Positions 35,171 to 47,640 of a DNA stretch of 49,960 bases are shown piece after piece; position 1 is the first letter of the stretch, and each line of letters opens with the position of its first letter. Source of the stretch: Magnetococcales bacterium (lineage in GTDB: Bacteria > Pseudomonadota > Magnetococcia > Magnetococcales > JADFZT01); NCBI GenBank assembly GCA_015232395.1, contig JADFZT010000031.1, positions 1-49,960 of the forward strand, read 5' to 3'. The translations under genes and the position numbers were made by a program. Below the pieces are notes generated by a model. The model searched no databases and was not told where the DNA came from. It saw nothing but the letters and a program-made list of their open reading frames with translations.

Positions 35171-35398
35171 TTTTATTTACAAAATATTTACAAATTAGTC
35201 CTGCCTGTTAACAACAACTGCATTTGATTTTAACATTGGTCGTGTAGAGTCTTTCCCAGGTTCAATCAGAAAAGTCCCCAGGGCGCTTGACCAGATCTTT
35301 TTGATGCAAGAGGGAGGCTTTCCCGGGTTGGTCCAAACACCCCACTTTCCCAAGACACAATCTGGCAGGAGTGGGGAGAAAAGCGGGAAGAGAGGATC
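35171..35398. ncRNA. Candidate structured RNA unit, tandem copy 1
   Basis: First copy of a ~225-base unit. The first ~95 bases are highly similar to copy 2 (for example CTGTTAACAACAACTGCATT and CGTGTAGAGTCTTT). The second half is diverged but alignable and contains a stem CCCCAC/GTGGGG. Aligned bases fall in different reading frames in the two copies, so it is unlikely to be coding. Strand and transcript ends are unknown. No promoter with good -35 and -10 was identified. Confidence 0.45.
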
Positions 35399-35630
35399 TT
35401 TTATCAAATTATTTACAAATTAATCCTACCTGTTAACAACAACTGCATTTCATTTTAACATTAATCGTGTAGAGTCTTTTCCAGGTTCCATCAGAAAAGT
35501 GCCAGGACATTTTATCCGGACCATTCAGATGGAAGATAGGGGAGTTTACGGAGTTGGCCAAAAACCTCACTCCCCAGCCCACACCTGGAGAGAGTGATGA
35601 GAGAACAAAGAACAGCATGTTTTTTTATTT
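35399..35630. ncRNA. Candidate structured RNA unit, tandem copy 2
   Basis: Second copy, starting again with TTTTAT and offset by 225 bases. The stem of copy 1 is kept as CCTCAC/GTGATG with one compensatory change (C-G to T-A) and one mismatch. The copy ends near GCATGTTTTTTTATTTT, a T-run that could be an unstructured end or a terminator tail on the plus strand. Confidence 0.45.
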
Positions 35631-35743
35631 TGATCAGTTATTTTAAAAACAGCCACCACAAACAAAAAACAAATCATTGAAAGAAACCAATCAAAAAACA
35701 AATCACTACAAAAAAGCCAATTAAAGAGGCCGAGGTTATTATG

Positions 35744-36326
35744 GGATCTTCACGATATTGGGAGAGGGGTGAAGATCCACATTAAGTTATTAGAAGGTCA
35801 AGTTATTAGCGGATCCTCGCGATATTAGGGGAGGGGCGGTGGTCCATTTAACTATTTCGGATCCTCGCGGAATTCTTGAGAGGAGTGGGGATCCATTTTC
35901 AACCAGGATTGACCTCTCGTTTCAAGCCTCCGTGGCACTTTAGGGAGAGGGGCGGAGACTTTACTCAATCAATTAAGGCAGCTCTGTTATTTCGAATCCT
36001 TGCGATATTTCCGAGAGGGGCAAGGGTTCATTTAATCATTAAGGCAGCTCTGTTATTTCGGATCCTTGCGATATTTCCGAGAGGGGCAAGGGTCCATTTA
36101 ATCATTAAGGCAGCTCTGTTATTTTGGGTCCTTGCGACATTTCTGAGAGGGGTAAGGGTCCATTTAATCATTAAGGCAGCTCCGTTATTTCGGATCCTTG
36201 CGATATTTTCGAGAGGGGTAAGGGTCCATTTTAAACCATATAAGACGACCCTGTTGCAAGAATCCAATTAAAGATCATTCAGTTATTAACGGGACTCTGC
36301 GGTATAAAGGAGAGGGGTGGAGGCCC
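35744..36326. repeat. Array of nine covarying hairpin repeats
   Basis: Nine ~36-base hairpins start at about 35744, 35811, 35859, 35924, 35994, 36060, 36126, 36192 and 36291. Numbers 5-8 form a regular 66-base tandem repeat (35977-36240). Each has a ~10-bp stem and a loop close to GATATTnnnGAGAGGGG. Stem sequences differ but pairing is kept: GGATCTTCAC/GTGAAGATCC in the first, GAATCCTTGC/GCAAGGGTTC in the fifth, GGATCCTTGC/GCAAGGGTCC in the sixth. Spacers often contain AATTAA-AGGC and GTTATT. Function and transcribed strand unknown. Confidence 0.8.
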
Positions 36327-36667
36327 ATTTATACAACCACCTGATATCCACGTTTTGGTCATGACCGGTTCGGTTGACGGTTTTGTTTTTGATGACTGGG
36401 CCCCACTGTCTCAGGTTCAGACGATCCCCATCACCCCCGTCAAGACTCTGCCCTTTCCAGACACACAGCTTTACCCCCCCCAACAAACACCCCTCGCCCG
36501 CAACCATTCACCCTTCAGACAAAATTCCATCCTCCAGCACCATACTCCCTGATCCAGCAGGAAAAAAATCACTCCACATTAATGGCATCAACCCGTTTTT
36601 GGCTTGACTCCCCATGAAGATCTTTTATTTTGATATCAATGCTTTTTAACGGATGGGGAGATCTTTG

Positions 36668-37669
36668 ATGAAAAAATGGTTTTTTATCTTGCTGGCGCTG
36701 CTTCTGACTGGCTGTGGATCCACACAGCAGAAATTTCGACTACAAATTCTCAATGAACTCCCCGTAGAAACCGTCATAAAGGCCCTGGACAATCCCCCAA
36801 GCGATCAAGTTGCCCAGGATATTGCCACCATATCAGTGGATACGGCCTTGGTGCTCTACCAGGAACGCATGGTGGATACCACCACCAACGAGGGTTCTTC
36901 CTTTCGGGAGGAAATTCTCAACAAAACCATCACCAACGCCATTTCCAACCAGCTGCAACATCACGGTTTTGCACCAGAGGGTTCCAAAGAGGGAACGACC
37001 CTGCGAGTGATCGTTGAAGATGTCCTCGTCACCAACCTGAACAATGTGTTCTATGACTATACCGCCGTCCACATCCGTGGCCGGGTTGCCCGCCTGACAG
37101 GTCACACTATTCTGGTCGAAGAAAACCACGACGTTCACATCAAGTTTGAAGGAAGCCCCTCCCAGTTTGCAGGCTACAGTCACTCCCCAGCCAAGGACAC
37201 AGGCATTTCTGCAGATGAAAAGGCCGCCTACGAAGCCATCTATCTGGCCGCCCGTTATTTCATCTATGTCTTTCTGGAAACCCAGCAGGATGACAAAAGG
37301 GCCCAATTGGAAGGCTCAAACGACAACCCCGAGGAACTCCTGATGGCCCAGCAGGCTGTTGCCACCCAGGCCCAGCAGGAATTTGCCCAGGAAACCCAGG
37401 AAAAAGTCATCTCCACTGCAATAGCTACCAAAACTCGCAAGCAGTCTCAATTGGCAGCCAAGGCCCGTCAACGCCTGGAAGCGACACCCGATAGTTCAGA
37501 TCAGGAAATATTGGTAGAGAGTCGGGAGATGATCGTGAAAAGTCAAAAGGTGGTGGAGTCAGCCATTACAACTCAAAAAGAGGAACCCGCCCTCACGTCA
37601 GCCGAATCATCCAAGGGTCTTTCCAACACCGAAGAACGCATTTTGGGTTGGCCTCTTACCCGCCGCTAG
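36668..37669 (+). CDS. Lipoprotein of unknown function with coiled-coil C-terminus
   Basis: 333 aa. The signal peptide ends in the lipobox LLLTGC, so it is lipidated at about Cys 16. Residues 20-195 form a mixed domain (LRVIVEDVLVTNLNNVFYDY, VHIRGRVARLTGHTILVEEN) I cannot assign to a family. Residues 215-320 are rich in Gln, Ala and Glu and probably form long helices or a coiled coil in the periplasm. ATG 36668 has GGGGAG seven bases before it; the frame is open five codons further upstream. It stands alone, downstream of the repeat region and convergent with another lipoprotein gene. Confidence 0.75.
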   Translation: MKKWFFILLALLLTGCGSTQQKFRLQILNELPVETVIKALDNPPSDQVAQDIATISVDTALVLYQERMVDTTTNEGSSFREEILNKTITNAISNQLQHHGFAPEGSKEGTTLRVIVEDVLVTNLNNVFYDYTAVHIRGRVARLTGHTILVEENHDVHIKFEGSPSQFAGYSHSPAKDTGISADEKAAYEAIYLAARYFIYVFLETQQDDKRAQLEGSNDNPEELLMAQQAVATQAQQEFAQETQEKVISTAIATKTRKQSQLAAKARQRLEATPDSSDQEILVESREMIVKSQKVVESAITTQKEEPALTSAESSKGLSNTEERILGWPLTRR

Positions 37670-37802: not shown

Positions 37803-38402
37803 CTAATCGGCCACGATTTCATAGTTGTGAATTTCCATCAGCCCCTCAGGTTCCTCCAAATGGTCCAAGGTATTCACAACAAACCAATTGTCAGCCACAT
37901 CACACGCCTCTCCCTGTCCCAGGGAAGCGGTACAAGCCAGCTTCAAAAACGGAAAAAAGAGAGCATCCAATATATTGGTTTTCCGAACCCCGGCCATCTG
38001 CCTGAAAAAATGGATTTCACCCTCCTGAACGCTCACCTCCTGAAACTGAAACAGGCCGTGACTTGAAAGCTGACATTTGACGGTGTGGCGTCCGGGATCT
38101 GCAACCAAACGCAGAGCGTGACCGTTTTTTAACTGTCCCACCCTTTCGCCATCAAAAAAAAGCTCTGCCGTCATCTTCTGGTCGGTCATATCCAGAAACA
38201 TGAAATAAAAAAGTCCCTTATCCGGCACAGCTTCAATATGATCCACAGAGAGAGGCGATGGGGTTGGCTGTTGACTCCAAGGCCAGGTACAACCTTGAAA
38301 AAACAATAAAAACAACACCATGAAAGACACAAACCCTAAATTATCCTGACTTAAGGCCTGCTTCCGCCCCCACCGAAATAATGCCAACTTCTTGCCCTTC
38401 AA
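37803..38402 (-). CDS. Lipoprotein with a DUF2846-like domain
   Basis: 199 aa from TTG 38402, chosen because GGGGAG lies seven bases before it and the resulting n-region (MKGKKLALFRWGRK) is positively charged ahead of a hydrophobic core and the lipobox LFFQGC. The frame is open upstream to 38483; ATG 38321 is another possible start but gives almost no n-region. The mature domain has AELFFDGERVGQLKNGHALRLVADPGRH, the pattern of DUF2846 and related PEGA-like folds (a small beta domain with a ..G..G.L..G..... repeat). Function unknown. It is convergent with the other lipoprotein gene. Confidence 0.7.
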   Translation of the reverse strand: MKGKKLALFRWGRKQALSQDNLGFVSFMVLFLLFFQGCTWPWSQQPTPSPLSVDHIEAVPDKGLFYFMFLDMTDQKMTAELFFDGERVGQLKNGHALRLVADPGRHTVKCQLSSHGLFQFQEVSVQEGEIHFFRQMAGVRKTNILDALFFPFLKLACTASLGQGEACDVADNWFVVNTLDHLEEPEGLMEIHNYEIVAD

Positions 38403-38671
38403 GGAGATTCTCCCCGCAACACAACCATTCAAAATCGCCGATAACTGACTCTCTCTATCGGATGATCGCCTGGAGATTGGCAAATATCAAGTTTGGGATG
38501 GGGCAATCCAGCGTGGCATCCAACCCAAAAAAGAAAAAAGGAATGTGGTGGATATCGACTATTTCAATGATTACAATAAGATCGACAGGAAACGCAAAGA
38601 AGCTCCTGTCAGATGGATGCAAAGGGCTTTTTTTTAAAATGAATGCGTGGTCTGGGGTGGGGAGTTGAAAA

Positions 38672-45375: not shown

Positions 45376-47448
45376 ATGAATTCCTCTGACACACCTTCCG
45401 CCCCATCATTCAATCAGCACACCACCACCTGTCCCCTGGATTGCCCCGGGGCCTGCGCCCTGTTGGTGCGTGTGGAGGAAGGACGGCTGCTGGAGGTCAA
45501 GGGCAATCCGGACCATCCCTTCACCCAAGGGGCCATCTGCGGCAAAGTGACCCGCTTTCGGGAAATACAGGAAGGCCCCCGCATCGCCACCCCCCTGATC
45601 CGCACCGGCGCCAAAGGGTCCGGTCAATTTCGCCAGGCGGGGTGGGAGGAGGCTCTGGATCTGGTGGTAAAGCGGTTACGGGTGATTATCGACCAACACG
45701 GCTCCGAAGCGATCTTTCCCTACCACTATGGCGGCACTATGGGACTTGTGCAGGGTCGTGCCATGGAGCGTTTGACCCATGCAGCCTGCTTTTCCCGCAT
45801 GAACCGCAACATCTGCTATGCCATCGGTTGGGCTGGGTGGCGCAGGGGTGTGGGGCTTGCGGTGGGACCAGCTCCCCAGGAAATGGCTGAGAGCGATCTG
45901 ATCATCCTCTGGGGCATCAATGCCACGGCCACCCACATCACCCTGATGCATTGGGTCAAAAAAGCCCGCAAGAGGGGTGCGAAGCTTGTGGTGGTGGATC
46001 CCTATCGCAACCGCACTGCCCACCTGGCCGACCTGCACATCGCCCCCAAACCAGGGAGTGACGGGGCGTTGGCGGCGGCGATGATGAACGTCTTGCTGGC
46101 CGAAGGCTTGGCTGACCTCGATTATCTACAACGCAAGACTGACTTTAACGAAGAGCTAAAAGCCCACCTGGCTACCCGCACGCCAGAATGGGCTGCCCCC
46201 CTGACCGGGCTCTCTGAGAAGAGCATCCGTGCGTTTGCCAAACTGTATGGTCAAGCGCGTGCCCCCTTCATCCGCCTGGGGTTGGGGATGAGTCGGCAAA
46301 AAAATGGGGCGGTCAACACCCATGCGGTCTCCTGCCTCCCGGCCATCACCGGCGCCTGGCAGCGCAAGGGAGGTGGTGCGCTCTTTGCCACCGGAGACGC
46401 CTTTTCAATAAAGAGCGAGGCGGTCAATCAACAAAGCCTCATGGAAAAGCCCACCCGGGTGCTGGACATGAGTCGCCTGGGACAATATCTCACCGACCCA
46501 ACCACAGCCATCAAAAGCCTGCTGGTCTTCAACGCCAACCCTGCCGGCTCCTGCCCGGATTTAACCCGGGTTCACAAGGGGCTCCTTCGGGAGGATCTCT
46601 TTACAGTGGTCCACGAACTGGTGATGAGCGATACCGCCCGCTTGGCTGATGTGGTGCTTCCCGCTACCTCCTTTTTGGAACACGCCGACCTTTATAAATC
46701 CTACGGTCAATATACCTTGCAATATGCCGAGCCGGTTTTGCCCCCTTTTGAACAGGCCCGCTGCAACCACGATGTGGTGAATGCATTGGCCAAAGGCCTG
46801 GGGCTTTCGGAAAGATCTCCTAGCTTCAGCCTGACGGATGAAGAGACGGTGGGGCAAGTATTGGCGGATTCCCAGCTCCCTCCAGCAGACAATTGGCATG
46901 GCTTAAGCTGGTTGGACTGTGCTCCCAGCTGGGAGGAGCGTCACTTCCTGAACGGCTTTCCCCAGCCGGATCGCCGTTTCCATTTTTTTCCGGGATGGCC
47001 GGATCAGAGCATGCCCCCCATGCCCGACCACTGGCCGGTCAACCGTCGAGATCTACCGGAAGCCAAGCGCTATCCTCTGGATTTCATGACTCCCCCCGCT
47101 TTGGATGTGCTCAACACCACCTTCACCTCAGCCCCCGAAGCCACCAGGCGTCGCGGTCCCCCAACGCTCTGGATCCACCCGGAAGATGCCGCAAGCCGGG
47201 GAATCGGGGAGGGGGATCCTGTTGCAGTGTTCAATGATCTGGCGCGTCTGAGCCTCACAGCCCATGTCACCACCGATGTCTCTCCCGGGCTCTGTCTGGC
47301 AGAGACCAATTTCAAAGCCGAAGAGTTTCCCGAAGGGATCTCCTTAAACGCCCTCTCTCATAGCGACCCGGTCGCCCCTGATACCGGACCCGCTTTTCAC
47401 GATAATCGCGTGGAGGTGATAAAAATCGAGAAGGCAGGGGAGAGCTGA
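45376..47448 (+). CDS. Molybdopterin oxidoreductase (DMSO reductase family)
   Basis: 690 aa. Cytoplasmic or exported Mo/W-bis-MGD enzyme with an N-terminal [4Fe-4S] site: CPLDCPGAC and the fourth Cys in AICGKV. There is no twin-arginine signal, so it is probably cytoplasmic. Conserved family blocks include GGTMGLVQGRAMERLTHAAC, ILWGINATATHI, KLVVVDPYRNRTA, FIRLGLGMSRQKNGAV, SLLVFNANPAGSCPD and LADVVLPATSFLEHAD. The C-terminal domain (about 580-690) begins PPALDVLNTTF and carries GRDxA-like dihydrofolate-free cofactor contacts. Substrate unknown; formate-like or other small molecule possible. The ATG at 45376 has no clear ribosome site. Its last codons lie inside a 46-bp tandem repeat. Confidence 0.87.
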   Translation: MNSSDTPSAPSFNQHTTTCPLDCPGACALLVRVEEGRLLEVKGNPDHPFTQGAICGKVTRFREIQEGPRIATPLIRTGAKGSGQFRQAGWEEALDLVVKRLRVIIDQHGSEAIFPYHYGGTMGLVQGRAMERLTHAACFSRMNRNICYAIGWAGWRRGVGLAVGPAPQEMAESDLIILWGINATATHITLMHWVKKARKRGAKLVVVDPYRNRTAHLADLHIAPKPGSDGALAAAMMNVLLAEGLADLDYLQRKTDFNEELKAHLATRTPEWAAPLTGLSEKSIRAFAKLYGQARAPFIRLGLGMSRQKNGAVNTHAVSCLPAITGAWQRKGGGALFATGDAFSIKSEAVNQQSLMEKPTRVLDMSRLGQYLTDPTTAIKSLLVFNANPAGSCPDLTRVHKGLLREDLFTVVHELVMSDTARLADVVLPATSFLEHADLYKSYGQYTLQYAEPVLPPFEQARCNHDVVNALAKGLGLSERSPSFSLTDEETVGQVLADSQLPPADNWHGLSWLDCAPSWEERHFLNGFPQPDRRFHFFPGWPDQSMPPMPDHWPVNRRDLPEAKRYPLDFMTPPALDVLNTTFTSAPEATRRRGPPTLWIHPEDAASRGIGEGDPVAVFNDLARLSLTAHVTTDVSPGLCLAETNFKAEEFPEGISLNALSHSDPVAPDTGPAFHDNRVEVIKIEKAGES

Positions 47449-47640
47449 AGCCAAAATGGTCGCGATGAAAACCAAAAGGGCAGGGGAGAGATGAAGCCAA
47501 AATGGCCGTGATGAAAACCAAAAGGGCAGGGGAGAGCTGAAGCCAAAATGGTCGTGATGAAAAACAAAAGAGCAGGGGAGAGATGAAGCCAAAATGGTCG
47601 TGATGAAAACCAAAAGGGCAGGGGAGAGATGAAGCCAAGC
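47434..47640. repeat. 46-bp tandem repeat, four and a half copies
   Basis: The GCAGGGGAGAG marker recurs at 47434, 47480, 47526, 47572 and 47618, exactly 46 bases apart. Each unit also has GAAGCCAAAATGG and GATGAAAACCAAAAG. The first copy contains the stop codon of the oxidoreductase gene. 46 is not a multiple of three, so no repeated peptide is encoded. Only single-base differences separate the copies, so it is recent. Confidence 0.92.

Follow-up and report, generated by a model that had tools for sequence, protein, structure and literature searches.

In the CcsR (cuckoo) arrays of Alphaproteobacteria, tandem small hairpin RNAs lie within one operon, and the loops of the cuckoo hairpins are pyrimidine-rich anti-Shine-Dalgarno (anti-SD) sequences. 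These arrays often adjoin a DUF1127 gene (PMC10253847). In the sponge RNAs CsrB and RsmZ, many repeated hairpins on one noncoding RNA display a single loop motif for protein titration, and the Csr RNAs have been described as having repeated GGA motifs in common (PMC11882849). Type III toxin-antitoxin systems (ToxI, CptI, and TenpI) likewise have structured RNA repeats arranged in tandem within noncoding DNA; in ToxI, the repeats fold into an H-type pseudoknot, and the endoribonuclease ToxN is their partner (PMC8860590). TIGR arrays, which include dual-repeat and stem-loop types, are also tandem and combine a constant part with changing flanking arms; no obvious covariation was reported between their spacers A and B, and they are associated with a Nop-domain Tas protein (PMC12045711). 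Finally, in REP/BIME elements, which are imperfect palindromes, the pairing of the stem is under selection. The hairpin array described below, from a Magnetococcales bacterium, was compared with each of these systems.

At positions 35744-36326 of the window (the whole stretch of 49,960 nucleotides that was analysed), nine diverged copies of one hairpin, U1 to U9, were observed on the + strand. All are in direct orientation, with a 10-bp stem and a loop of 15-18 nt close to GATATTnnnGAGAGGG, and the array occupies much of a 1.5-kb intergenic gap. U1 (35744-35778), with the arms GGATCTTCAC and GTGAAGATCC and the loop GATATTGGGAGAGGG, forms 10/10 pairs and has a fold z of -4.6. U2 (35811-35845; arms GGATCCTCGC and GCGGTGGTCC, loop GATATTAGGGGAGGG) forms 9/10 pairs in the alignment, and U3 (35859-35894; arms GGATCCTCGC and GTGGGGATCC, loop GGAATTCTTGAGAGGA) forms all ten. 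The most diverged unit is U4 (35924-35961; arms AAGCCTCCGT and GCGGAGACTT, loop GGCACTTTAGGGAGAGGG), which has 9/10 pairs and a model score of 42 bits. U5 (35994-36029), U6 (36060-36095), U7 (36126-36161, with three G.U pairs), and U8 (36192-36227) are successive copies of a 66-bp tandem repeat on the + strand (35967-36231), for which TRF gave a period of 66, 4.0 copies, and 92% matches, in agreement with the 66-base repeat that a sequence-only reading of this DNA had reported for these units. U9 (36291-36326; arms GGGACTCTGC and GTGGAGGCCC, loop GGTATAAAGGAGAGGG) again forms 9/10 pairs. When U2 and U9 were folded alone, the hairpin was not the minimum free energy structure.

The same reading had described U1 to U4 and U9 as older and differently spaced. 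Their spacing is not free: the distances between unit starts, from U1 to U9, were 67, 48, 65, 70, 66, 66, 66, and 99, that is, 66±4 except for two steps, one of them short and the other long. The element GTTATTwn lies directly 5' of seven of the nine stems and is kept in the linkers, and ATTT follows most stems on the 3' side. The spacing and the linker-borne GTTATTwn thus indicate that the ancestral repeat was the whole unit of about 66 nt. The linkers of U5 to U8 are nearly identical to one another. A CRISPR array was considered and rejected, because the repeats diverge, these linkers are nearly identical, and no cas gene was found among the proteins scanned. An AT-rich stretch (35600-35740) adjoins the array, and an AT-rich 29-bp direct repeat (CAATCAAAAAACAAATCATACAAAAAAAC, 2.3 copies) is located at 35659-35725, just 5' of the first hairpin.

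In the nine-unit alignment, 87 of the 90 stem cells paired on the + strand (96.7%), and RNAalifold, unprompted, recovered the same 10-bp stem from the nine sequences. Sliding the partner column by 1-3 positions lowered the pairing to 43-58%. The stems covary: matched double changes were observed at 6-7 of the ten stem positions, and the covariation score of the nine units was 0.628, compared with 0.402±0.048 in column shuffles, none of 500 of which reached the observed value. When U5 to U8 were cut to one copy (U6), 95.0% of the cells were paired, seven of the ten pairs were double-changed, and the score was 0.667, again reached by 0/500 shuffles. Because the data come from one genome and nine short units, the covariation rests on few sequences. 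Simulations on the tree of units, in which the parsimony number of changes per column was retained, gave an expected pairing of 74.4±7.5% against the observed 96.7% (0/5000); under the tie rule of this simulation, six pairs had double changes (P 0.002). The stem pairing is therefore not a by-product of the kinship of the units. The nine hairpins with matched stem changes and a kept loop, which had been proposed from the letters alone, are borne out by these counts and by the nulls that they exceed; selection on structure, proposed at the same time, is supported by the covariation, the RNAalifold stem, the non-redundant set, and the tree-aware null. In this respect the array also differs from TIGR arrays, since here the arms pair and covary as a helix. 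No Tas-like (Nop-domain) protein was found among the ORFs scanned in the window.

These results bear on whether the array is a neutral tandem repeat, or encodes a repetitive peptide, with the hairpins being incidental. Tandem duplication by itself yields similar copies, but chance pairing was rejected by the tree-aware null and the non-redundant set. An open frame (35876-36271) runs across the array, as a peptide would require, but it covers U3 to U8 only. Furthermore, the pairwise codon changes among U5 to U8 were mostly nonsynonymous (38 vs 5 synonymous), and the variable sites numbered 5, 6, and 3 at the three codon positions, with no concentration at the third. Protein coding across U3 to U8 was rejected on these grounds, as the array has no stable reading frame, and a neutral repeat or a repetitive peptide with incidental hairpins is very unlikely.

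The units were also folded. As single RNAs, U1, U3, U5, U6, and U8 exceeded their shuffles, and U2, U4, and U9 showed no clear gain over their own. In one long transcript, stronger rival folds were found for U2, U4, U8, and U9, and the fold of the whole array (626 nt) was no better than shuffles (z -0.96). Since a global-fold signal is lacking and competing folds occur in these four units, the selected object seems to be the single unit rather than a global fold.

It had been left open earlier whether the structure forms in RNA or in single-stranded DNA, and on which strand. The strand could be resolved to +. Only 74/90 stem cells pair on the - strand, as against the 87 on the + strand, because G.U pairs turn into A.C there. 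The stem wobbles on the + strand reading comprise 14 G.U and 1 C.A; as nearly all of them are G.U, the + strand is the structured strand. Several units gave good RNA folds on the + strand and poor ones on the - strand. As single-stranded DNA, the wobble-rich U7 folded weakly (-2.4 kcal/mol, z 0.1), and U1, which has no wobble, folded well. These observations favour RNA of the + strand over DNA and over the - strand, and it is highly probable that the structure exists at the RNA level.

The hairpins might instead act as DNA, the + strand forming a single-stranded or cruciform array for a replication, recombination, or partition protein, comparable to REP elements, attC sites, or single-strand origins. 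In favour of this, DNA-protein arrays typically consist of tandem direct repeats like these, whose period is mostly constant at about 66 bp; the array also adjoins the AT-rich stretch at 35600-35740, and the local gene order is unlike that of relatives. However, G.U is freely accepted in the covariation, the tested G.T-rich unit barely folds as DNA, and matched stems would be unnecessary in a double-strand DNA site. The neighbouring genes scanned included no integrase, Rep, or transposase. The array is also a single locus without REP-like dispersal; it shares with REP/BIME elements the imperfect palindromes and differs in being one local, direct-orientation array with no dispersed copies. Taken together, these points make action as DNA unlikely.

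The loop is the most constant part of the unit. Its core, GRGAGGR, is invariant across the units, GAGAGG occurs eight times in the array (0.6 expected), and on the tree of units the loop underwent 1.13 changes per column, compared with 1.92 in the flanks. The earlier suggestion that the loop is a binding site gains support from this, the loop being a likely recognition element. Two further suggestions about it fared less well. An anti-SD role of the loop on the - strand is disfavoured by the same pairing and wobble counts that identify the + strand as structured. The likeness of the + strand loop to a ribosome-binding sequence is not consistent across the array, as U3 and U5 to U8 form only 4 bp with the standard anti-SD. 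Pairing energies of the loops with the standard anti-SD ranged from -5.8 to -11.5 kcal/mol, compared with -7.4 kcal/mol for scrambled loops, and were weakest in U3 and the amplified units; as a group, the loops paired with it little better than scrambled loops did.

The loop also distinguishes the array from CsrB and RsmZ, as its core is GRGAGGR and not ANGGA. The genome contains one csrA gene (C23:11536-11691) and GGA is present in five of the nine loops, as would suit a CsrA/RsmA sponge like CsrB, but neither motif is enriched (GGA, 16 vs 19.1 expected; ANGGA, 2 vs 4.8 expected), and GGA is not found in the loops of U5 to U8, the most recently amplified units. We consider such a sponge extremely improbable.

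Alternatively, nine small RNAs might be processed from the array and pair by their loops with targets containing CCUCUC, or the array might be an RNA antitoxin against a trans-encoded partner. Regular units on AU-rich linkers do resemble processed arrays such as CcsR1-4 (PMC10253847) and ToxI (PMC8860590). In contrast to the cuckoo arrays, however, the structured strand here bears a purine loop (GAGAGGG), which is not an anti-SD, and no DUF1127 gene was found among the neighbouring proteins scanned, in which very small ORFs were partly covered. The type III antitoxins differ in that the unit here is a simple stem with long linkers; the genes adjoining the array, as scanned, included no toxins. 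A search of the genome for PF13958 (ToxN) gave no match, yet the control genomes gave none either. A loop-linker pseudoknot, sought by eye, was rejected, since pairing was strong only before U4 (linker CCTCTC) and was not conserved; loop-loop kissing through ATAT was also discarded, as it was not kept in U4 and U7. Processed small RNAs or an antitoxin thus appear rather improbable.

The neighbours of the array are chromosomal and comprise genes for glutamine synthetase, a gldA/F/G-like ABC operon, two orphan proteins, cytidine deaminase, a cytidylate-kinase-like protein, and PPK2. The array lies downstream of the gldA/F/G-like operon, and its units run in the direction of the neighbouring genes. 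GldG is present in 31 of the 47 relatives of the order, at about 39-56% identity. In relatives with a readable downstream flank, an ORF of about 420-490 aa directly follows gldG, and the one tested is DUF4340. In this genome, a homologue of the DUF4340 gene lies apart from gldG (C4:97642-98901, 34% identity). The region was rejected as a decayed DUF4340 gene, since that homologue exists elsewhere and much of the region consists of repeats. A second gldG/DUF4340-like pair was observed at C6:50904-52963. Downstream of the array are a putative lipoprotein (36653-37669, + strand), which is the next gene, and a weakly DUF2846-like protein (37803-38483); neither had a match in the 47 order relatives. 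The changed gene order and these two unmatched proteins place the array inside a lineage-specific stretch. Elsewhere in the window, a 46-bp tandem repeat (47433-47638; 4.5 copies, 93%), with GGCAGGGGAGAG in most units, was found where a molybdopterin oxidoreductase ORF ends, and the repeat folded no better than shuffles.

The position of the lipoprotein gene raises the alternative that the hairpins form a cis-acting leader in its 5' untranslated region and control it. The gene is the next one downstream on the same strand and, like the array, is unmatched in the 47 order relatives. Against this, 326 nt separate the array from the start codon, and this interval contains a promoter-like site of its own (36604-36631); furthermore, the known tandem cis-elements use far fewer than nine copies. 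We regard a leader as improbable.

Possible transcript ends were sought on both sides. Preceding the array are two diverged direct copies (35180-35346 and 35405-35571, + strand; 78% identical) of a 167-nt element that is confined to this locus within the genome and best conserved in its first ~85 nt; both may serve as a promoter or transcript leader. Weak promoter-like sites were found in these copies, the one in copy 1 being TTAACA-17-TAACAT (35208-35236). The two copies may share a common helix with a matched change, a weak hint given that there are two copies. On the 3' side, a weak terminator-like hairpin (36362-36376, + strand) followed by ACGGTTTTGTTTTT is a possible 3' end; the terminator search found one against 1.5 expected in shuffles, which is not significant. 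The promoter and terminator scan around the array gave none that was convincing.

The covariance model matched exactly nine units in its own genome, all at the array, and had no convincing match among 120 relatives or in the 399 genomes searched from the phylum, none of them from the same family. The sequence-only reading had named absence from relatives among the findings that would count against it. None of the relatives carries the array; since no same-family genome was among those searched, this shows restriction and not absence of function. The best outside match (genome G025, E 7e-4) was rejected as a unit, because it is a terminator, in which T6 follows a hairpin with the loop GGGAGAGAGG. 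A genome-wide search with the loop pattern at up to three mismatches gave 346/373 matches, compared with 246/257 for the reversed control; the excess is modest and contained no second array. Three GAGAGGGG at a spacing of 52-82 occurred in at least 119 stretches in genome contigs and in 19 in viral contigs; the stretches inspected were CRISPR repeats, low-complexity palindromes, or repetitive coding DNA, the model found no unit in any, and they were discarded as further arrays. The IMG/VR viral contigs contained none with the tighter unit pattern, and blastn against phages and plasmids gave no match. As had been stated earlier, the array matches no recognised family: Rfam 15 gave nothing above the gathering threshold in the window (sub-threshold matches only, E up to 5), and the literature search found no matching family.

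We propose, with a probability of about one half, that the array is a lineage-specific noncoding RNA that acts as a multivalent decoy for a putative RNA-binding partner. The RNA would be read from the + strand, perhaps over 0.7-0.9 kb, might be cut into pieces of about 66 nt, and would present the hairpin nine times, with AU-rich linkers between the copies. Recognition would take place at the constant loop GATATTnnnGAGAGGG, with the stem serving only as a scaffold, which would explain why the stem drifts by compensated changes. The presence of so many near-identical sites on a single RNA suggests titration; the array may thus be a decoy or sponge for an RNA-binding protein or, with lower probability, for a small RNA that carries CCUCUC. 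The recent amplification of U5 to U8 would fit selection for additional sites. A loop that stays constant while the stems drift, the high copy number within a single transcript-like unit, and the recent gain of copies together point to a multivalent binding platform. It is a more doubtful proposal that the array represents a new class of multivalent noncoding RNA, one that titrates a putative protein through the purine loop and grows by unit duplication within one bacterial lineage.

Most structured RNAs come from genome comparison, so that those confined to a single lineage are missed; here, the covariation was supplied by paralogous copies within one array. If expressed, the array would be a sponge whose loop motif differs from that of CsrB, and one unit would readily serve as bait for the putative binding partner.
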